NCBI GenBank assembly: GCA_030123605.1 | Contig: CP126123.1 | Span: 434,001 to 498,000 of the forward strand | DNA length: 64,000 nt | Origin: Nitrospira sp. | GTDB lineage: Bacteria > Nitrospirota > Nitrospiria > Nitrospirales > Nitrospiraceae | Direction of reading: 5' to 3' | Shown here: positions 10,951-26,937 of the stretch, in pieces | How positions within the stretch are numbered: the stretch's first letter is position 1 | Layout of the letters: each line of letters opens with the position of its first letter | The notes under the pieces: generated by a model | Seen by the model: the letters and a program-made list of their open reading frames with translations, nothing else | What the model was told of the DNA's origin: nothing | Databases searched by the model: none | Program-made: the position numbers and the translations under genes

Positions 10951-11661
10951 CTATGCCAAAGCCGGTGGCCGTACCAACCCCTGTTGGTGTGCCCTGATTA
11001 GGAGTTTCTGGCGATTGGAGACGCCGAGTTTGTCGAAGATGTTGGTGAGGTGATGTCGGACCGTGATGCTTGAAATACATAGTCGGTCTGCAATGTCTTT
11101 ATTGGAAAGGCCCTCGCTGATCAAGCGAACAACTTCACGTTCCCGTTCTGTCAATCCATCCGGCCACTTGGGCAGGTCAGGTGTTCGGGTGGATGAGGCC
11201 GGAATAATGGAAAGGGTGCTACTCAACTCCAACTGAGTCGGCCGGTTTCCGATCGGCATTGTGAGCGTTGTCGTCCTGTGGGCAAGGTACTCGATTGTGG
11301 CGACCAAGACAGGTGATGGTTGCATTCTCAGCACAAGGCCGTCTACTCCGCAGGCAAAGGCCTGATGGATCTTTTCAGACTCATCGATTCCAGCCAGGAG
11401 AATAATTTTGATTGCCGGGGCTGTCGTCTTGATCGTTTGAATCAAGTCCGGGACCGCTCGCTCAATCTCTGTATCGAAAATCACAATGTGCGGATGTTCG
11501 CCAGTTAGAATATCCTCGAAGCTCGTCCCATTCGCGCTCTGGCCGATCAAGCGTATCCATTTTTCGTCCTCGACAATCCGTTGCAAACCAAGCCGCAGAA
11601 GATAGTTGCTGCTCACGATCGCCACAACCGTCATGGCTCTGCTTTGCTCGATTCTGCTCAT
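10951..11661 (-). CDS. LuxR-type regulator with degenerate receiver domain
   Basis: From ATG 11661, preceded by a strong AGGAGGACTG, the protein has 236 residues. The N-terminal half has the layout of a NarL/FixJ receiver, and FDTE could supply the phospho-aspartate. However, the acidic pair expected after the first strand is replaced by IVSSN, and the conserved lysine region reads GLVLRMQP instead of a lysine motif. The C-terminal half is a clear LuxR helix-turn-helix (LTEREREVVRLISEGLSNKDIA, then ITVRHHLTNIFDKLGVSNR). It probably controls transcription without ordinary phosphorylation. It is the last gene before the exopolysaccharide locus and faces away from it, so regulation of that locus is a reasonable guess. 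Confidence 0.85.
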   Translation of the reverse strand: MSRIEQSRAMTVVAIVSSNYLLRLGLQRIVEDEKWIRLIGQSANGTSFEDILTGEHPHIVIFDTEIERAVPDLIQTIKTTAPAIKIILLAGIDESEKIHQAFACGVDGLVLRMQPSPVLVATIEYLAHRTTTLTMPIGNRPTQLELSSTLSIIPASSTRTPDLPKWPDGLTEREREVVRLISEGLSNKDIADRLCISSITVRHHLTNIFDKLGVSNRQKLLIRAHQQGLVRPPALA

Positions 11662-12273
11662 CAGTCCTCCTGACCGAAATTTATTCTCCACATAGCGCTA
11701 AACGTCCGGAAAGTATCTCCCGCAGTTAATGATAAAGGTACGTAGTATAGGCTAGGTTAAACATGTGATTGAACCATCCTGCACCGCGGGATAATCGCAT
11801 ACCAGCCACGGTCCAAGCAATGGAAAATGTATGTAATGAGGTAGCAAAAAGGTATTGCTGGTAAACATTTTCCTCCGATCGACTGTCGTGAGGTCGTAAA
11901 AACTGTGAGTGTACATTAGTGTCCAACGACGAGCATACGAGGACTCTCTCTAGTGAGCTTACCAGGGCGTCCTTTTGAGGGTTGGATTGCAGGGATGCAA
12001 AATCGCAGCAGAATTAATACTGGTAATTGATCAGGTCACATTCGTGAACAATGGTCGGCATGTTGATCAGCACAAACGTACGAGTATGACCTACCTCATC
12101 CTACGCGATGAACGGCACTAATATCCGATGTTATGTGTCGCGTCATCGCTGTATAAGTGTCGCCCGTCAGTGGTCGGCATTGCGATGGATATGTGGGGAG
12201 GAATGGACCGAGGCCTATCCGCATGGTCATGCACAAAGTTGCACGTTTGGATGTGCGGAAAACACAGTGACGT
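11662..12273. other. Long intergenic region upstream of exopolysaccharide locus
   Basis: About 610 bases, visibly richer in A and T than the flanking genes, without a convincing gene. A 66-codon minus-strand frame (11726-11926) and several overlapping short frames show no recognisable protein. The region must hold the divergent promoters for the LuxR-type regulator on the left and for the IS3 OrfA-like gene and perhaps the polysaccharide genes on the right. Confidence 0.5.
12063..12090 (+). promoter_or_regulatory. Weak candidate promoter upstream of exopolysaccharide locus
   Basis: TTGATC at 12063-12068 and TATGAC at 12085-12090 are spaced by 16 bases and point toward the locus. The match is modest and other starts in this AT-rich stretch are possible. 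Confidence 0.3.
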
Positions 12274-12546
12274 ATGCTGTCTCGATTCACTGAAGAAAAA
12301 CAAATTCAGATCCTCAAGGAAGGCCGTGTCGAGGGGATTGGGCGCGTATGCAGGAAGTATCGGATCTCCGTCAGCACGTTTTATCGCTGGCGGGCAAAGC
12401 ACGTTGCGATAACTCTGGACCCTGTTCGCTACCTGCGATCCTTGCAACTTGAGAATCGGCGTCTGAAGCATCGTGTGGCTGAATTGTCCCTGGACTACAC
12501 TGTTCTCCGATCTGCCCTGGTCAACGATCGAGGTAGCGAATGTTAG
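12274..12546 (+). CDS. IS3 OrfA-like helix-turn-helix protein (orphan)
   Basis: The 90-residue product begins RFTEEKQIQILKEGR and continues with a helix-turn-helix (GRVCRKYRISVSTFYRWRAK) and a leucine-zipper-like tail (LRSLQLENRRLKHRVAELSLD). This is the architecture of OrfA of IS3-family elements. No OrfB integrase frame follows and I see no terminal inverted repeats around it, so it is either a relic of an element or a captured DNA-binding protein. It lies about 150 bases before the first polysaccharide gene and on the same strand, so it could act as a local regulator; that is speculative. Confidence 0.7.
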   Translation: MLSRFTEEKQIQILKEGRVEGIGRVCRKYRISVSTFYRWRAKHVAITLDPVRYLRSLQLENRRLKHRVAELSLDYTVLRSALVNDRGSEC

Positions 12547-12697
12547 CGGTTCACGTAGTTTCGAGTGAGGTTACGCTGCTATCGGCAACGAAGGGTGTGT
12601 GGCAGATAGGCGGCTATGCAGCCTCTACATTGTTTCCGAGGGTCTTGCTATGGGATGTGAGGGCAGCTGTGTCCCTCTTGATGACGAGGGCCATCGC

Positions 12698-14431
12698 ATG
12701 AAGGCCGTGATCATGGAAAGCGCCCCATGGATCGGAACAATGCTGGCGTTTCCAGTTGGAAACGAGCTGTTGATCGGCCACCTGTTGTTGGCTCTCAAGC
12801 AGCACGGTGTCAGCGAAGTTGCGGTGGTGTCGTGTGAGCAGGATCCGTCCGTACAAGAACTGGTGTGTCGAACGGGTCGTGCCTGCGGCATGACTGTGTT
12901 GTGGCGGACGGAGCCTGTCTATCGAGGAACCGCAGGTGGCTTGCAGGCGGTGGAAGACTTTCTCGACATCCCGACCTTCCTGGCCATTCATGCCAATGTG
13001 TATTTACGCGATCTGGACCTGGCGGCTGCGCTTTCCGCGCATGAATCACATAAGGCCGGCATTACGTTGGTCGCTCAGCGCATGATGGGCAACGGCGATG
13101 ACCTGGAGAGTATCGAAGTGGATCCGACGGGGCTCGTCTCCCGGGTCAATATTCTACATTGGTCACGGAACCGTCGGAGCCAACTCACACCCTGTGGGGT
13201 ATACGTATTCAACCGTGAGATCCTTCCGCTTATCCCTCGGGACGAATATTTTGATGTGAACGAGCAGCTTGTGCCGTTGGTACGAAGCCGCGGCGGGTCG
13301 ATTCGTGTCCACCAAATCCCGGGGCGCGTGAGCACGATCACGGGACCGGAGGATTTTCTATGGTTGAACCGTGAGATTTTGCTCAAAGACGTCCAGCCCA
13401 GTGTGTGCGGCGACAGTCGTCACAGTGGTATGGACGATATTGTCATCGGAGAAAACTCGGATATTTCGCCGCGTTCCTTCTTATTGGGTCCTCTGGTGAT
13501 CGGTCCAAATTGTGTAGTGGAAGATTATGTGCACCTGATTGGGCCTGCGGTGATCGGTCCGACCTCTCACTTGGAAAAGGGAAGCCTCGTTCGCGAAAGT
13601 GTGCTTCGGTCGGGCACGCGGGTACAGGGAAATGCCAGGGTGGAATTTTCTGTGGTGGCCGGCGACGAGACTGTTCCCGAGGGCATGCGCCTTCGGAGCA
13701 CCTTCTGGACCACGGTGAAGCCGGTCATGTATGAGTCGCATGGATCGTTGTCACAGGCGGCAGCGGGCAGGTCTATTCAACGGGTGAGGTGCGCTCAACG
13801 GTCTCCCGCAAAAGTGCAGGGTGACAACGGTCAACGATCGGTATATGGCCTCGTCAAATCCATGGTTGATCGCATGGGCGCCGCTGCCGGGATGATTCTC
13901 GTGAGTCCGCTCATGGCGTTGATCGCACTCGCGATCAAGTTGGATTCCCCAGGTCCGGTGGTTTTCTCTCAAAAGCGCTGCGGCAAGAATGGTAAGGAGT
14001 TTTGGATGCACAAGTTCAGAACCATGGTCCCGGATGCCGAGCAACGCCAGAAAGACTTGCGGGCGCACAATACGGTCGATGGACCGATGTTCAAATTGGA
14101 GGAAGATCCTCGCATTACCCGTATGGGCAAGATTCTTCGCAAGACCAGCCTTGATGAGTTGCCGCAATTGTTGAATGTCTTGAGGGGAGAGATGAGTCTT
14201 GTCGGCCCTCGACCGCTTGCTTATGACGAAATGAAATTCTGTCCGACATGGCGTGATGCGCGGTTGAGCGTGCTTCCTGGGTTGACGGGGCTCTGGCAGG
14301 TGAAGGCGCGTAATCGAAATCGATTCTCGGAGTGGATTCGATACGATCTCGAGTATGTCCGCGCGCATTCGCTGATGCTGGATTTGTACATTCTCATTCG
14401 GACCGCTCGGGTGCTGTTGAAAGGAGTGTGA
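12698..14431 (+). CDS. Degenerate nucleotidyltransferase fused to undecaprenyl-phosphate sugar phosphotransferase
   Basis: About 577 residues from ATG 12698 (GAGGG 7 bases upstream); ATG 12650 is also possible. Residues 1-230 have the fold pattern of sugar-phosphate nucleotidyltransferases (MKAVIM, FPVGNELLIGHLLLAL, YRGTAGGLQAVEDFL). The GGxGTRL loop is replaced by ESAPWIGTML and the metal-binding Gly-Asp by Ala99-Asn100. Residues 245-345 look like left-handed beta-helix repeats (VIGENSDISP, LVIGPNCVVEDYV). From about residue 385 there is a membrane helix and a complete bacterial sugar transferase domain (KFRTM, KTSLDELPQLLNVLRGEMSL, VGPRPL, LPGLTGLWQVKARNR). The last part would start the exopolysaccharide by loading a sugar phosphate on undecaprenyl phosphate. 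The first part is probably catalytically dead and may be a binding or regulatory domain. Confidence 0.85.
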   Translation: MKAVIMESAPWIGTMLAFPVGNELLIGHLLLALKQHGVSEVAVVSCEQDPSVQELVCRTGRACGMTVLWRTEPVYRGTAGGLQAVEDFLDIPTFLAIHANVYLRDLDLAAALSAHESHKAGITLVAQRMMGNGDDLESIEVDPTGLVSRVNILHWSRNRRSQLTPCGVYVFNREILPLIPRDEYFDVNEQLVPLVRSRGGSIRVHQIPGRVSTITGPEDFLWLNREILLKDVQPSVCGDSRHSGMDDIVIGENSDISPRSFLLGPLVIGPNCVVEDYVHLIGPAVIGPTSHLEKGSLVRESVLRSGTRVQGNARVEFSVVAGDETVPEGMRLRSTFWTTVKPVMYESHGSLSQAAAGRSIQRVRCAQRSPAKVQGDNGQRSVYGLVKSMVDRMGAAAGMILVSPLMALIALAIKLDSPGPVVFSQKRCGKNGKEFWMHKFRTMVPDAEQRQKDLRAHNTVDGPMFKLEEDPRITRMGKILRKTSLDELPQLLNVLRGEMSLVGPRPLAYDEMKFCPTWRDARLSVLPGLTGLWQVKARNRNRFSEWIRYDLEYVRAHSLMLDLYILIRTARVLLKGV

Positions 14432-16665
14432 TGAACGTGCCGTACCCAACAGGGATCCCCGAAGCGAAATCCGTCGCGGTTCCGAACCGGTCGGCGTTTG
14501 GTCTGAGAGAACATCTGATCACCGTGTTTCGTCAGAAACGCATGCTGCTCACGATTATCGGAGTGGCGACCATCGTAGCCGGTCCGGGCTCATTTCTGAT
14601 GACCAATATTTACAGTGCCGAGGTTCGACTCCTCATCCAGAATGCGCGGACCCCTTTCAGCATGAGCACCCCATTGACGGGGCAGGTTTTCACACCTTCC
14701 GACATCACACAAAAAGATGATGTGGCGACGGAGGTACAAATCTTCACCAGCCCGATTTTGTTGGATAAATTGGTCGACTATTTCGGAAATGAACGGGTGT
14801 TGGCGTCTATGCGAGGGCGCTGGGACTGGGTTGCCGAACTACCGAAATCCGTCTTCAAGCAACTGGCCGGTCTGCCGCCGTTCGCCCAAGCATTGGCGAC
14901 GATCGGGTATGAGCCCAAGCCGGAGAACTTGCACTATCAAGCGGTGCAAAAAATTCGGGCTCATTTGAATGTGGAAGGAGTGCGGCAAACTCACGTGTTT
15001 GTTGCAAGCCTCGACTCTCCTGATCCGGAGTTTTCCGCGGATGCGCTCAATGCGTTGGTCGGCATCTATATGGATCACCAGCTGTCGGTCCGTAAAGGCA
15101 AGGGTGCCCGCGAATTCTTCGACGAGCAGACGAAGCAGATGCGCGGTGAGTTGCAGCAGGCAGAACTCCGGTTGCAGGCCTTTAAAGACAAATGGAACAT
15201 CGTCTCTATTGAAGATCAGAAGCGGCATCTCTTACAGCAAGTGACGCACACCGAAGCTGCGCTTCGTGAGAGTCAGGTGCAGGTCGCAGAAACGGAAGTG
15301 CGCATCACCAAACTGAAGGAACGGCTGGCAGGACAACAGGAGGCCATTCCGCTCACGAATGTCTCGGAGCGAAATCCGATGCTGGATCAACTCAAAAATC
15401 GGTTGATGCAGATGGAATTGGAGTATTCCCAGTACGTACCGGACAGTCCGGCTGCTGCAGAACTTGTGCGGGAAATTGCCGCCGTGCGTGCACGCCTACA
15501 GGCGGAGAGTTCGAAGGTCACCGGGGCAGCCACATCCGGTCTCAATCAAAACTATCAGGAGTTGAAGCGCACCCTGGTCATGGAGGAGGGGCGTCGAGAA
15601 AGCTTGCGGCCCCGCCTTTCTGAGTTGACCAAGCAATTCAAATCTTACCGAGATTCTCTCAATACCTTGGATCAGCGAGAGATGGAATTGCAGGGGCTGA
15701 TGCGGGAGGTCAAGGTCAAGCAAGAAGCGTTCGACATTTATCTCAAGAAGGAAGAAGAGTCTCGGATCAATGAGGTGTTGGATCGCAAGGGAATTTCCAA
15801 CGTGAACGCAATCGAACATGCCACCCCTCCGCAGAAACCCGTTCGGCCTCGCAAGTTTCTTAATCTCGTGATTGGACTGTTGATCGGATTGATCGGAGGA
15901 TTCGGATCGGCTTACGTTTCTGAGTATATGCGCCGAACGTTCGTCACCCGCGAGGAAGTGGAAGACTCTCTCGGGCGGCCTGTGCTCGCGGCGTTACCAC
16001 TCGTCCGTCCCGGAACGTTTGATGCGGGGAGTTTCGATCTTGAGTTACGACAGGCCGCCCAGTACGTCATTCGTTCCTATCATGAACGCGGCCTGAGAAC
16101 GTTGCTTGTCACGAGTGCCCTCCGCGGTGAAGGCCGATCGCATGTGGCCGGTGCCCTTGCGCAAGTGCTCAGCGAACAGAAGTTTCGCATGCTGCTCATC
16201 ACCTTTGAGGATGCCGAGTCAGAGAAACGAGCGACGAGCCATGTCGCTGCGGCTGTGAAGCAAGGATCAGCTGCCAGCCGTCTGCTCCAGGATATTCCCG
16301 AGCCGACTGATCGTCCGCATCTCCATCGATTGCGTGTTCGCTACAAAGAAGAGACGGCGCTGGAGTTTGCCGAATATCTTACCGAGGTGGCCAAGACAAT
16401 GCGCGATCGTTTTGATCTGATTGTGATCGACGGCCCGGCGTTGACCTCTTTCCCTGAAATGCGGCTGGCCATTGCGGGAATCGACGGTACCATTTTGGTC
16501 ATTGAGGCGGAACGGACGGTGTCGGTGGCGGCGGCCAGGACGATGGCGGCGATTGAGACGGCAGGCGGGCACTTGCTGGGACTTGTGTTGAACAAACGGC
16601 GATATATCATCCCGGACTGGATTTACGGTCGGTGGTTGGCGGCCGGCGAGAGGGAGGGCGTATGA
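14431..16665 (+). CDS. Wzz/GNVR polysaccharide co-polymerase with degenerate BY-kinase domain
   Basis: From ATG 14431, coupled to the previous stop, the protein has 744 residues. It has a membrane segment at about 38-60, a long periplasmic coiled-coil region at 220-460, a second membrane segment at about 485-510, and a cytoplasmic ATPase-like domain. Such proteins set chain length and, in the Wzc type, autophosphorylate on tyrosine. Here the Walker A loop reads ALRGEGRSH with Arg569 in place of the essential lysine, the A' motif is LLITFEDAE rather than LLIDADLR, and there is no C-terminal tyrosine cluster. Walker B (DLIVIDGPAL) survives. I read it as a co-polymerase whose kinase domain no longer hydrolyses ATP normally. 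Confidence 0.88.
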   Translation: MNVPYPTGIPEAKSVAVPNRSAFGLREHLITVFRQKRMLLTIIGVATIVAGPGSFLMTNIYSAEVRLLIQNARTPFSMSTPLTGQVFTPSDITQKDDVATEVQIFTSPILLDKLVDYFGNERVLASMRGRWDWVAELPKSVFKQLAGLPPFAQALATIGYEPKPENLHYQAVQKIRAHLNVEGVRQTHVFVASLDSPDPEFSADALNALVGIYMDHQLSVRKGKGAREFFDEQTKQMRGELQQAELRLQAFKDKWNIVSIEDQKRHLLQQVTHTEAALRESQVQVAETEVRITKLKERLAGQQEAIPLTNVSERNPMLDQLKNRLMQMELEYSQYVPDSPAAAELVREIAAVRARLQAESSKVTGAATSGLNQNYQELKRTLVMEEGRRESLRPRLSELTKQFKSYRDSLNTLDQREMELQGLMREVKVKQEAFDIYLKKEEESRINEVLDRKGISNVNAIEHATPPQKPVRPRKFLNLVIGLLIGLIGGFGSAYVSEYMRRTFVTREEVEDSLGRPVLAALPLVRPGTFDAGSFDLELRQAAQYVIRSYHERGLRTLLVTSALRGEGRSHVAGALAQVLSEQKFRMLLITFEDAESEKRATSHVAAAVKQGSAASRLLQDIPEPTDRPHLHRLRVRYKEETALEFAEYLTEVAKTMRDRFDLIVIDGPALTSFPEMRLAIAGIDGTILVIEAERTVSVAAARTMAAIETAGGHLLGLVLNKRRYIIPDWIYGRWLAAGEREGV

Positions 16666-22489: not shown

Positions 22490-23800
22490 ATGCAGGTGTT
22501 GCGTTCGGGGGCGAAGGCGCTGTCGCAGCAGACCGCCCTGGTGTTTGCCGGAAAAATGACCGGAGCCTGTCTGGGGTTTGTGATGAGCCTGCTCGTCGCC
22601 CGCTGGATGGGGCCGGAAGAGTTCGGATTATTTTCTCTGTTCATCGTGATCCTGATATTTGGCAATGACGTTCTTGGAGATGGGTTGAGCCCGGGAGTTG
22701 TGCGATTTTATTCCATGTATCGGTGTCCAGATCCCTCCAAGGCGGCTGAAGTGCTTACCAATGCGTTGGCGCTGCGCTTGTTGCTCGGCATTCCGGTTGT
22801 TGTGGTCGGTGTAACCGTGGGATTGCAATATACGGAACGGGTGTTTCATAGCCAGTCGTACGTGGCCCCCGTGGTGTTGGGCCTGGTCGGCTCCTTTGGC
22901 GCGGCCTTGTGGAGTTTCAATCTCTCGGTGTGGCAGGCCCGTGAAGAATTCGGGACCTACGGGGTGATGGTCGCGCTGATAAATGTGCTGAGGATCCTCA
23001 GTCTGCCGGTGTTGTTCCTGGGAGGGTATCTCACACTGGGGGGAATCATGGGGTCCCATGTGTTGGTTTATTTCCTCTGTGCGCTATCCGGTCTCTGGGT
23101 GCTGCGCAGGAACTTGGGACATGTTCGCGTCAACGGCGAATTGTTGCGGGAACTCTTTGGATTCAGTAAGTGGCCGGCGATGGCCAGCCTCTGTTTTATC
23201 CTTCAAGTGAACCTGGGCGTTCCGGTCCTCAGCTCTGTTGTGAACGCCCGCGAAGCGGGACTGTATGGGGCCGGATCCTCCCTATTAATGGGAGTGGATT
23301 TCCTGACGGTCAGTCTTCTGACGACATTGCTTCCCAAGGTTAGCCGGTTGACGGGGATTGAACAGTGCCGTGTTTACGTGCGGCGCTCGTTTCCAGCCTA
23401 TGCACTCATTGCCGCGGCAATCCTTCCGGTGCTGTTTTTCGCGCGTCCGATTGTCATTGGGTTATTCGGCCTGGCTTATGAAGGCACTATCGAGGTCTTT
23501 CAGGTCTTGTTTGTTGGAACGCTAGGAACATTGGTGACACATCCCTTGTATCTGGTGCTCTATACGATGGATCGCCCACAACTGCACACGTTATCAGGGA
23601 TCGTAGGATTGATTGCTTGGCTGTTGGCCGGCTTCTGGCTCATTCCGCAATTCGGCGCCGTCGGAGCTGCGTGGACGACGTTGTGTTCTCGACTTGTTCA
23701 ATCCTTCATGATCGTTGTCATTCTTTGGCATGCATTGGGATTCGGCGGATCGTCGAGGGTGGCGGCGCGCTCGGTCATGCCGGATGTAAGAGGATCATGA
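22490..23800 (+). CDS. Wzx-type polysaccharide flippase
   Basis: This 436-residue polytopic protein (about 12 to 14 hydrophobic helices) has the pattern of the MATE/PST flippase group, including KMTGACLGFVMSLLVARWMG near the N-terminus and GPEEFGLFSL after it. It would move undecaprenyl-linked repeat units across the inner membrane. Its stop overlaps the start of the Wzy-like gene, as often seen for the flippase-polymerase pair. Confidence 0.88.
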   Translation: MQVLRSGAKALSQQTALVFAGKMTGACLGFVMSLLVARWMGPEEFGLFSLFIVILIFGNDVLGDGLSPGVVRFYSMYRCPDPSKAAEVLTNALALRLLLGIPVVVVGVTVGLQYTERVFHSQSYVAPVVLGLVGSFGAALWSFNLSVWQAREEFGTYGVMVALINVLRILSLPVLFLGGYLTLGGIMGSHVLVYFLCALSGLWVLRRNLGHVRVNGELLRELFGFSKWPAMASLCFILQVNLGVPVLSSVVNAREAGLYGAGSSLLMGVDFLTVSLLTTLLPKVSRLTGIEQCRVYVRRSFPAYALIAAAILPVLFFARPIVIGLFGLAYEGTIEVFQVLFVGTLGTLVTHPLYLVLYTMDRPQLHTLSGIVGLIAWLLAGFWLIPQFGAVGAAWTTLCSRLVQSFMIVVILWHALGFGGSSRVAARSVMPDVRGS

Positions 23801-25230
23801 AACCGAACGAGCCGACATATACCATTCCTGCGCTGGTGGGGGCGACGTTGGGCGCGTCGGTGTTGGCGCTCTCGACCAAGGCCCTGGCCATCGTGATTGC
23901 CGGTAGTGCGTTCCTCGGGATGACTGCATCGGCGGTCTTTCCGTATTACATTCTCGTGGCCACTATTCCCGTGCAAGTTGATCTGCTGGGGGGACTGACG
24001 GTCACAAAACTGATTACGCCGTTGGCTATAGGTATGGTGACCATCAATGCGCTGATTCATCGCGGACCTTGGCCAGTGCTTTTACGATGGCCGGCTGGTT
24101 ACCTTGTCGCCGTGTTCTTTCTTGCCTCGTTGCTGTCCCTGGTTTTTGCGGAGAGCCTGATTGAATTGCCAGGCGAAGCGGCAAAGATCCCGGTCTACGG
24201 GGCACTCTTTTTCTTCACTCTGACCTTCAATCGACACCCGGATGATGTGCGTCGATTGCTCTGGGTGATTACCATTACGGGTGTGGGGGAGGCACTCATT
24301 ACGGCGGCCCAGGTCCACTATGGTTTTGTGATGCCAGGCGACTGGCGAAGGAACGTCGGTTTGCCAAGTCAAGGGGGAGTAGACGGGGCGTTTATGTCTA
24401 TCTCTGAGGGAAAGGTTCGTGCTGAGGGTACCACCGCCCATCCGATTTTTCTCGCAAGCTTCTTCCTGATGGCCATGCCCTGCACCGCATTCCTGCTTTT
24501 TCAAGAGAAGCATCCATGGGTGAAGGCTTCACTTGGGGCCATGCTCAGCCTCATGGCCTATGCGTGGTTTTACACTTTTGCCAGAAGCTCGGTCATCGGC
24601 TTCGCGCTTTTGATTCTGGTTGGCCTGTGGTTGCAGTTCAAGCTCGTGAGGAAGCTGTCCTTCATTATGCTCTTGCTGGCGCTTGCCGGGGGACTCAGTT
24701 ATCAGGCCGTCTCGGAATGGTTTCAAGTCGGGGTACAAACCATAGAGAGTCAGAGCCTCTTCGGCAAGGCTGATCTAAACGAAGGCAGCGGAAGTTTCGC
24801 ATTTCGACGGGAGTCGATCGTCGGTGGTTGGAATCTGTTTGTGGCGCACCCTTGGTTTGGCGTCGGATTCGGGCAAGCCATCAATCACTACGTCAAATAT
24901 TTACCGGCGTGGGCCGACCACTATTATCACCCTGCTGTGATCCATAACATGTTCCTTGAAGTAGCGAGCGAGCTCGGGGTGTTTTCATTGTCAGCGCTCA
25001 TTGGGTTGTGGGTGTTGGCCTTCATGAGCTTGAAGCAGGGGCTTCAGAATCCTGATGTACGGCCCTACGCTGTTCTATTAAGCAGCATTCTTGCGGGGCA
25101 GATGATTTTTCTGATGATCACCCCGATGGTGCGCGAAATTTGGCTGACCTTGCCGATGGCTATAGCGATCGGACACATGGCAAAGAACCACACGCGCGAG
25201 ATTGTCAGCTTGCCGTGTCGACAGATGTGA
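23797..25230 (+). CDS. Wzy/O-antigen ligase family polymerase
   Basis: From ATG 23797 (overlapping the flippase stop) the protein has 477 residues with about ten or more membrane helices. A large hydrophilic loop near the middle contains EGTTAHPIFLASFF, and a later loop has GVGFGQAINHYVKY, both typical of the Wzy_C/O-antigen ligase family. With Wzx and Wzz in the same operon it is best read as the polymerase of the repeat units. Confidence 0.85.
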   Translation: MKPNEPTYTIPALVGATLGASVLALSTKALAIVIAGSAFLGMTASAVFPYYILVATIPVQVDLLGGLTVTKLITPLAIGMVTINALIHRGPWPVLLRWPAGYLVAVFFLASLLSLVFAESLIELPGEAAKIPVYGALFFFTLTFNRHPDDVRRLLWVITITGVGEALITAAQVHYGFVMPGDWRRNVGLPSQGGVDGAFMSISEGKVRAEGTTAHPIFLASFFLMAMPCTAFLLFQEKHPWVKASLGAMLSLMAYAWFYTFARSSVIGFALLILVGLWLQFKLVRKLSFIMLLLALAGGLSYQAVSEWFQVGVQTIESQSLFGKADLNEGSGSFAFRRESIVGGWNLFVAHPWFGVGFGQAINHYVKYLPAWADHYYHPAVIHNMFLEVASELGVFSLSALIGLWVLAFMSLKQGLQNPDVRPYAVLLSSILAGQMIFLMITPMVREIWLTLPMAIAIGHMAKNHTREIVSLPCRQM

Positions 25231-25300
25231 GTTCGTGCTCAGCAACAACGGATAGTTGCCCGTGCGAATGGCTTGTCGGTAAGCATGAAATGAGGACACA

Positions 25301-26305
25301 ATGAGAATTCGCGTCAGTGTTGTCATTCCCGCTTACAACGCCACGAAAACGATCGGCGATGGCTTGCAGTCATTCGCCCGTCAGTCATTTCAAACAGCCG
25401 AAGTTGAAATTATCGTTGTCGACGATGGATCGACCGACGGCACTCCTGAATATCTCGAGGTCTATGCCAAGAGTTGGGGACCAGAGCAGCCCCGATTGCG
25501 TGTGATGCGGCAGGCGCATCAAGGCCCAGCGGCTGCACGGAACTTGGGCGCAGCAGCGGCTGAAGGAGAATTTCTTCTGTTCACCGACGCCGACTGCGTG
25601 CCGCATATCGATTGGATCAAGGAAATGGTGGCGCCGTTTCACTCACCAAGTATTGCCGCAGTGAAAGGCGCCTACAAGACAAAGCAACGGAGCCTCGTCG
25701 CCCGATTTGCGCAAGCCGAGTTCGATGCACGGTACCGCAAGCTGGCCACGGAAGAATTTGTGGATGTGGTCTTCTCCTACTCGGCAGGATTTCGTCGCGA
25801 CGTGTTTCGATCCATCGGCGGATTCGACATCAGTTTTCCCGTTGCCGACAACGAAGACACGGACCTTTCGTATCGGGTCGCGACCGCCGGTTATAAGATC
25901 AAGTTCAATCCGGCGGCGATTATCTATCATCAACATCCAGCGACACTGAAACAGTATCTGAGGAAAAAACATAGCCGAGCCTATTGGCGGGTGATGGTGT
26001 ACAAACGGTTTCCAGGTAAGGCCATCCGTGATTCCTACACTCCGCAAACCCTCAAGCTTCAGATCGGCTCGGTTGTGCTGGCGGTGGGGGCGATTGCGTT
26101 GATGCCGCTGGTGCCTAGTGCCACCTATGTTGCGGCACTGGCGAGCGGGCTTTTCACGGTCACCGCGTTGCCGTTTCTGTGGCAACTGCCTCGCGAGGAT
26201 CCTGGATTGCGATTGGCCGCGCCTTTCCTGTTAGTGTGTCGGGCCGCCGTTATGGCAACTGGGTTGATGCGAAGTGTGCCGTTATTGATGAGTAAGACCA
26301 ACTAA
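25301..26305 (+). CDS. Glycosyltransferase family 2
   Basis: The 334-residue protein has a GT-A fold family 2 domain at its N-terminus: SVVIPAYNATKTI, IVVDDGSTDGT and LLFTDADCVPH, the last with the metal-binding DxD-like motif. The C-terminus has two or three hydrophobic segments that would anchor it in the inner membrane. It adds a sugar to the lipid-linked intermediate. Confidence 0.9.
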   Translation: MRIRVSVVIPAYNATKTIGDGLQSFARQSFQTAEVEIIVVDDGSTDGTPEYLEVYAKSWGPEQPRLRVMRQAHQGPAAARNLGAAAAEGEFLLFTDADCVPHIDWIKEMVAPFHSPSIAAVKGAYKTKQRSLVARFAQAEFDARYRKLATEEFVDVVFSYSAGFRRDVFRSIGGFDISFPVADNEDTDLSYRVATAGYKIKFNPAAIIYHQHPATLKQYLRKKHSRAYWRVMVYKRFPGKAIRDSYTPQTLKLQIGSVVLAVGAIALMPLVPSATYVAALASGLFTVTALPFLWQLPREDPGLRLAAPFLLVCRAAVMATGLMRSVPLLMSKTN

Positions 26306-26334
26306 GATTCATGCTACCGAGGGGGAGACAAGTT

Positions 26335-26937
26335 ATGCGACGTATTGTGCACACAAGCTGGGCTGTTTGTTTCATGGTGCTGTGTCTGACGACTGTCACG
26401 CACGCATCCGAAACCGAGCAGGTTCTGACTCCGTCTGTAGATGCGGGTTGGAACGGTCCATTTCGATTGGGCGCGGGTGATGTCCTCAATGTGTTCATTT
26501 GGAAGCACAAAGAACTGTCGACCATGGTCACCGTCCGTCCGGACGGAAAAATCAATTACCCATTGATCGGCGAGATTGAGGCCAAGGGACTCACATTGAG
26601 TGAGATTGAGGAGCGGATCAATAAGCAACTGAAGCAGCACATCCAAGATCCGCAGGTCACGGTGATCTTGGAGGCAACGCACAGTTTTCGCATCTTCGTC
26701 TTGGGTGAAGTGATGCAGCCGGGCGTCTTTGATCTCAAGGGACCGGTGACCATCATTCAGGCGTTAGCCATGGCCCGTGGGCTTACCACGTTTGCGTCGC
26801 GGAACAAGATTTTCATCGTCAATCCTGCGCGCGGCAACGAGCAACGCATTCCGTTCAGTTACAGCAAGTTCGTTCAGGGGGAAGATACGAATCAGAATGT
26901 GATGCTTCGGCCTGGGGACACGGTGATCGTGCCGTAG
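26335..26937 (+). CDS. Short OPX (Wza-like) polysaccharide export protein
   Basis: From ATG 26335, with GAGGGGGAG upstream, the product has 200 residues. It has a signal peptide ending near THASE, a polysaccharide export domain (FRLGAGDVLNVFIWKH, VTVRPDGKINYPLIGEI) and one SLBB domain (RIFVLGEVMQPGVFDLKGP). It lacks the later SLBB repeat and the C-terminal outer-membrane helix of classical Wza. The next gene is a predicted outer-membrane barrel, suggesting that the two together form the export channel. Confidence 0.9.
   Translation: MRRIVHTSWAVCFMVLCLTTVTHASETEQVLTPSVDAGWNGPFRLGAGDVLNVFIWKHKELSTMVTVRPDGKINYPLIGEIEAKGLTLSEIEERINKQLKQHIQDPQVTVILEATHSFRIFVLGEVMQPGVFDLKGPVTIIQALAMARGLTTFASRNKIFIVNPARGNEQRIPFSYSKFVQGEDTNQNVMLRPGDTVIVP

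Follow-up and report, generated by a model that had tools for sequence, protein, structure and literature searches.

A catalytically depleted nucleotidyltransferase-beta-helix module fused to a putative initiating phosphoglycosyl transferase in Nitrospirota

The window, the whole stretch of 64,000 nucleotides analysed here, carries a single unbroken frame of 577 aa (ATG at 12698, TGA at 14431) in which a nucleotidyltransferase (NTase) domain is followed by a left-handed beta-helix (LbH), a loose linker and a monotopic phosphoglycosyl transferase (PGT) (Table 1). The protein matched PF00483 NTP_transferase (E 1.6e-7), PF00132 Hexapep (8e-7) and PF02397 Bac_transf (2.5e-65; 219.8 bits against a gathering score of 27), all exceeding gathering scores, and a PHROGs search returned a single weak match to a family of unknown function. 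The ATG of the adjoining Wzz/GNVR gene overlaps the fusion stop codon (TGATG), and genes for a methyltransferase, GT4, epimerase, flippase, Wzy_C, GT2 and Poly_export follow further on. The fusion is therefore the first gene of an exopolysaccharide (EPS) operon, the position at which an initiating transferase is expected. Upstream (10951-12697) a minus-strand LuxR-type regulator faces away from the fusion over about 1 kb; in L119, L124 and L125 the fusion likewise has members of the same regulator cluster nearby. No recognised promoter or RNA element was found in the gap of about 1 kb between regulator and fusion. The promoter and terminator scan found nothing, and Rfam detected only a tRNA near the operon.

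Table 1. Coordinates of the fusion gene, its domains and diagnostic residues, and neighbouring operon features in the window.
Feature	Position	Strand	Basis
Whole fusion gene, 577 aa: pseudo-nucleotidyltransferase - LbH - phosphoglycosyl transferase	12698..14431	+	ORF, Pfam domains
NTase-fold domain, residues 1-230, catalytic residues lost	12698..13387	+	PF00483 E 1.6e-7; N-terminal model fold match; motif table
Residues 7-16 ESAPWIGTML, remnant of GGxGTRL phosphate loop	12716..12745	+	Motif comparison
R-G-T-A-G, residues 76-80, nucleobase loop kept, with an Arg typical of fusions in front	12923..12937	+	Alignment counts
Ala99-Asn100 replacing metal-binding Gly-Asp	12992..12997	+	Fusions N 21, S 2, D 0 of 23; stand-alone D 45/45
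Glu137 in place of stand-alone pocket Gly	13106..13108	+	E 21/22 fusions; G 43/45 stand-alone
H154-x-S-x-N-R-R, family-specific motif near sugar-binding Glu-Lys-Pro position	13157..13177	+	Residue counts in fusions
Thr213 where second metal Asp (W-x-D-x-G) expected	13334..13336	+	Fusions D 0/23; stand-alone D 40/45
Left-handed beta-helix (hexapeptide) domain, residues 247-335	13436..13702	+	PF00132; lowest dN/dS of four regions
Variable linker, residues 336-382, probably disordered	13703..13843	+	pLDDT <50 at 340-380; dN/dS 0.2-1.5
Monotopic PGT domain, residues 383-577	13844..14428	+	PF02397 2.5e-65; intact motifs; hydrophobic peak
Asp486-Glu487, PGT catalytic dyad	14153..14158	+	Invariant in 22 fusions
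Wzz/GNVR chain-length protein, next gene	14431..16665	+	PF02706, PF13807
Export and polymerisation part: flippase (Wzx type), Wzy_C protein, GT2, Poly_export/SLBB (Wza type)	22490..26937	+	Same operon

The C-terminal domain looks like an active PGT, as an earlier reading made from the sequence only had proposed. The KFRTM, SLDELPQ (containing the Asp-Glu dyad) and GPRP motifs are present in the window protein, and the dyad, KFRTM and GPRP are intact in 22/22 complete fusions, with minor changes flanking the dyad. Both sequence and model place one hydrophobic helix in the N-terminal part of the PGT (about residues 392-417). The large monotopic PGTs (WbaP/EpsZ class, PF02397 and PF13727) share this catalytic domain and an initiating role beside Wzz, but where they have an N-terminal four-helix transmembrane bundle and a CoA_binding_3-like domain, NTase-LbH is found here: the fusion protein lacks a PF13727 match, and no series of hydrophobic segments precedes residue 380. 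Bi-PGTs, in which a functional domain is fused to a monotopic PGT (PMC10942596), also carry an extra domain on the PGT core; unlike theirs, the extra domain of the fusion is without catalytic residues. The linker has no conserved Met, which makes it unlikely that the PGT is translated on its own from an internal start. PGT domains in very long frames (886-929 aa; L146, L148, L156 and L157) were seen in Nitrospira genomes without the fusion.

Modelling of the N-terminal half (NTase and LbH; mean pLDDT 78.2, pTM 0.67) assigned its predicted fold to the GMPase and UGPase class (Z 26), consistent with the NTase fold and beta-helix repeats recognised earlier. The best matches were tlr0611 (8x7s; Z 26.3, rmsd 6.7 over 318 residues), VTC1 (Z 26.3, rmsd 7.4 over 324 residues) and GMPPA/GMPPB chains (Z 25-26). 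NTase-only matches gave an rmsd of 2.3-3 over 207-230 residues, and the high full-length values probably reflect the NTase-LbH angle. In the model of the entire protein (mean pLDDT 72.8, pTM 0.47) the placement of NTase-LbH relative to the PGT is unreliable, and pLDDT is low at residues 154-159 and at the phosphate-loop remnant. tlr0611, a UTP--glucose-1-phosphate uridylyltransferase, is the closest solved homologue by profile (E 1e-46) and ties with VTC1 by fold, but it is about 20% identical and, unlike the fusion, has its catalytic motifs. Profile and fold also matched eIF2B gamma and epsilon, non-enzymatic NTase-LbH proteins that serve as scaffolds; these differ from the fusion in belonging to a translation factor with an unrelated partner. 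GMPPA/Arabidopsis KJC and GMPPB/VTC1 have the same architecture and fold, and GMPPA/KJC is in addition a catalytically inactive member, with a regulatory role. The fusion resembles it, at the sequence level, in combining NTase-LbH architecture with loss of catalysis. In contrast to these eukaryotic separate subunits, which act on a pyrophosphorylase, the window protein has no pyrophosphorylase partner fused to it and its NTase-LbH is covalently joined to a bacterial membrane PGT.

Although the fused domain has the NTase fold (PF00483; Z 23-26 to solved NTases), the motifs of an active sugar-phosphate nucleotidyltransferase, namely the GGxGTRL loop, the catalytic Lys, the Gly-Asp metal site and the second metal Asp, are absent from the fusion. 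When 23 fusions and 45 stand-alone homologues were aligned together, the phosphate-loop Arg was found in 2/23 fusions as opposed to 45/45 stand-alone proteins, the Lys of Pro-Lys in 0/23 and 45/45, the Asp of Gly-Asp in 0/23 and 45/45, and the second metal Asp in 0/23 and 40/45. The loop carrying the catalytic Pro-Lys, which would follow ESAPWIGTML, is deleted (an 8-column alignment gap), and the sugar-binding Glu-Lys-Pro is also gone. The nucleobase loop is retained, with G77 and G80 in 23/23 fusions, and lies within the block YRGTAGGLQAVEDFL at residues 75-89. The sequence-only reading had located ESAPWIGTML, this block and Ala99-Asn100 exactly where we find them and had described a former enzyme; the losses it listed hold, but it missed three more (the Pro-Lys loop deletion, the second metal Asp and Glu-Lys-Pro). 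Since the whole set of losses occurs in 23/23 fusions and 0/45 stand-alone homologues, it is not due to chance. Together these counts support the view that the N-terminal domain is a former nucleotidyltransferase that would be unable to work by the mechanism of its family.

Enzymes of consecutive pathway steps are commonly found fused, and a bifunctional protein that goes on producing its own NDP-sugar through a modified mechanism would fit the purifying selection described below. With Lys and both metal Asp residues missing in 23/23 fusions we regard this as very improbable. Eleven other NTP_transferase matches exceed the cut-off in the same genome, so catalysis does not depend on the fused domain. 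Within a few kb of the dead fused NTase, L116 (13513-14427) and L117 (14420-15211) encode separate NTases whose GGxGTR and PKP motifs are intact.

The same fusion occurs in 23 Nitrospirota genomes from several families and at least two classes, with 36-90% identity across the phylum; some carriers are nitrifiers of the genus Nitrospira. Ten further Nitrospira genomes have it at 73-90% identity over residues 1-331, the phylum sample contained it in another genus of the same family (L044, L045, L051) and in distant classes (L046-L050), and wider family and class searches added L093, L101, L102 and L103. A genome-contig scan with one fusion sequence gave matches in Nitrospira only. Among about 860 Nitrospirota genomes searched no fusion with an intact NTase was found, all intact-motif matches being short stand-alone frames. 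The sequence-only reading had named such intact fusions as the sign of a local mutation and had asked whether the losses are conserved; as they recur across the phylum, a local mutation does not account for them. Plasmid matches spanning most of the fusion (Nonomuraea, Rhodococcus) proved to be neighbouring separate genes. Decay of the phosphate loop is graded, with GGQNTRL or GGEGTTL in some distant fusions and outright loss in Nitrospira and its sister genus. Thus the metal and Lys losses are common to all fusions, and the loop deletion came later, in one branch.

In phylogenetic trees the fused PGT domains formed one clade (100/98), as did the fused NTase domains (100/100, apart from 45 others). 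Both trees have long branches, so that a single fusion event, though the most economical interpretation, is not proven. The nearest PGT outgroups include proteins from Granulicella (L077), Nitrospira (L130) and Nonomuraea (L076), of which the Nitrospira protein carries CoA_binding_3 (PF13727) and is thus a large PGT. Given this placement among the large PGTs, made with few outgroups and some long branches, NTase-LbH probably replaced their transmembrane and nucleotide-sensing module. In a Nitrospirota ancestor, a large PGT would have exchanged its N-terminal transmembrane bundle and its nucleotide-binding domain for an NTase-LbH unit of the UDP-glucose/GDP-mannose pyrophosphorylase kind.

The dead NTase domain is under purifying selection. 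In Nitrospira pairs dN/dS was 0.05-0.20 for the NTase part, 0.01-0.04 for the LbH and 0.05-0.10 for the PGT; the linker values, 0.2-1.5, are noisy estimates. A decaying remnant without function would be compatible with one fusion copy from a groundwater metagenome genome (L010/L038), which has an in-frame TAA at codon 36, either an assembly error or a real loss. For the family as a whole the selection data refute decay, low dN/dS being accompanied by near-invariant new residues over phylum-scale divergence, and we consider it extremely improbable. An active site long lost in a domain so strictly preserved suggests instead that the domain probably holds the starter enzyme together and/or regulates it.

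The LbH had the lowest dN/dS of the four regions in 9/9 Nitrospira pairs, below even the catalytic PGT, and as the most constrained part in this genus it speaks for assembly no less than for sensing. LbH domains mediate dimerisation in this pyrophosphorylase class and form the main dimer interface in GMPases (PMC9168903). These observations, and the disappearance of the phosphate, metal and sugar sites, would be expected of a pure scaffold, in which a ligand-free NTase-LbH di- or trimerises the PGT or docks an EPS enzyme (a glycosyltransferase or Wzz) through the beta-helix. Across the phylum, however, the LbH is less conserved than the PGT (mean identity 0.59 and 0.74), the nucleobase loop is kept in 23/23 fusions, and pocket-side residues R76, E137, H154, S156, R159 and R160 are near-invariant over about 30% identity; a pure scaffold is somewhat unlikely on balance.

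The remodelled pocket bears on what might be sensed. Arg76 is found in 20/22 fusions and is absent from the residues listed at that position in stand-alone homologues. H154 is present in 20/22, S156 in 21/22, R159 in 18/22 and R160 in 19/22, while Y184, D186, E189 and Q190 each occur in 22/22. Most of these near-invariant residues differ from the stand-alone proteins. The position of the H154 motif relative to Glu-Lys-Pro is approximate, because the variable region 150-165 cannot be aligned with certainty to the stand-alone proteins. The replaced residues could also reflect packing rather than a ligand site, which would count against a sensing role.

Two precedents for nucleotide-dependent control are available. 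One is GMPPA, an inactive protein to which GDP-mannose binds and which inhibits GMPPB (PMC11228364). The other is WbaP, where uridine nucleotides bind to an accessory domain that also stabilises the dimer, and where UMP inhibits the full-length enzyme (PMC10942596); this nucleotide-sensing domain seems to be the module replaced in the fusion. Both precedents, like the purifying selection, fit the sensor or scaffold that the sequence-only reading had put forward, a role we find plausible. Its more specific idea, GMPPA-like feedback sensing of an intact NDP-sugar, agrees with the fold, with the GMPase and UGPase as closest relatives, and with the kept nucleobase loop. Only G-T-A-G of the site is preserved, however: the sugar-contact Gly has become Glu, Glu-Lys-Pro is gone, the phosphate loop is shortened in Nitrospira and both metal Asp residues are lost. 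As the sugar, phosphate and metal sites are all replaced, sensing, if it occurs, is less likely to involve an intact NDP-sugar; an intact site is unlikely from the alignment, and we doubt this version.

The reading we favour, as fairly probable from sequence, selection and precedent, is that the fusion is the initiating PGT of a Wzx/Wzy-type EPS locus whose N-terminal module was replaced by a dead NTase-LbH with oligomerising and regulatory functions. The beta-helix would make the PGT oligomeric, and the NTase-LbH would gate it allosterically, the switch being a nucleotide or other small ligand in the remodelled pocket (nucleobase loop with R76, E137, H154, S156, R159 and R160) or, alternatively, a partner protein on the beta-helix. 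Switching of the PGT would meter the use of undecaprenyl phosphate. More tentatively, Nitrospirota may have exchanged the nucleotide-sensing module of the PGT for a domesticated dead pyrophosphorylase that senses a different metabolite in the remodelled pocket. If true, this would be an independently evolved gate on the first committed step of polymer synthesis. Little is yet understood about how bacteria control that step, at which surface polysaccharide synthesis competes for undecaprenyl phosphate, and a phylum-wide family with a dead nucleotide-sugar enzyme in place of the usual regulatory domain offers a natural comparison, with named residues. With it, pseudoenzymes of the GMPPA type would reach beyond eukaryotes, to an enzyme of the bacterial membrane.

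At the distant fusion loci L113, L120, L121 and L123 (and L114), a gene of one cluster adjoins or lies near the fusion; its L113 member is an AMP-binding (acyl-CoA-ligase-like) enzyme (PF00501), and none of the Nitrospira loci examined contains a gene of this cluster. The Wzz/GNVR protein of the window has a kinase-like C-terminus in which Walker A reads GEGRS rather than GEGKS/T. The same Lys-to-Arg exchange occurs in L118, L119, L124 and L125, while GEGKT is kept in L113 and L122, and judging from its sequence this protein may be another pseudoenzyme encoded by the operon.
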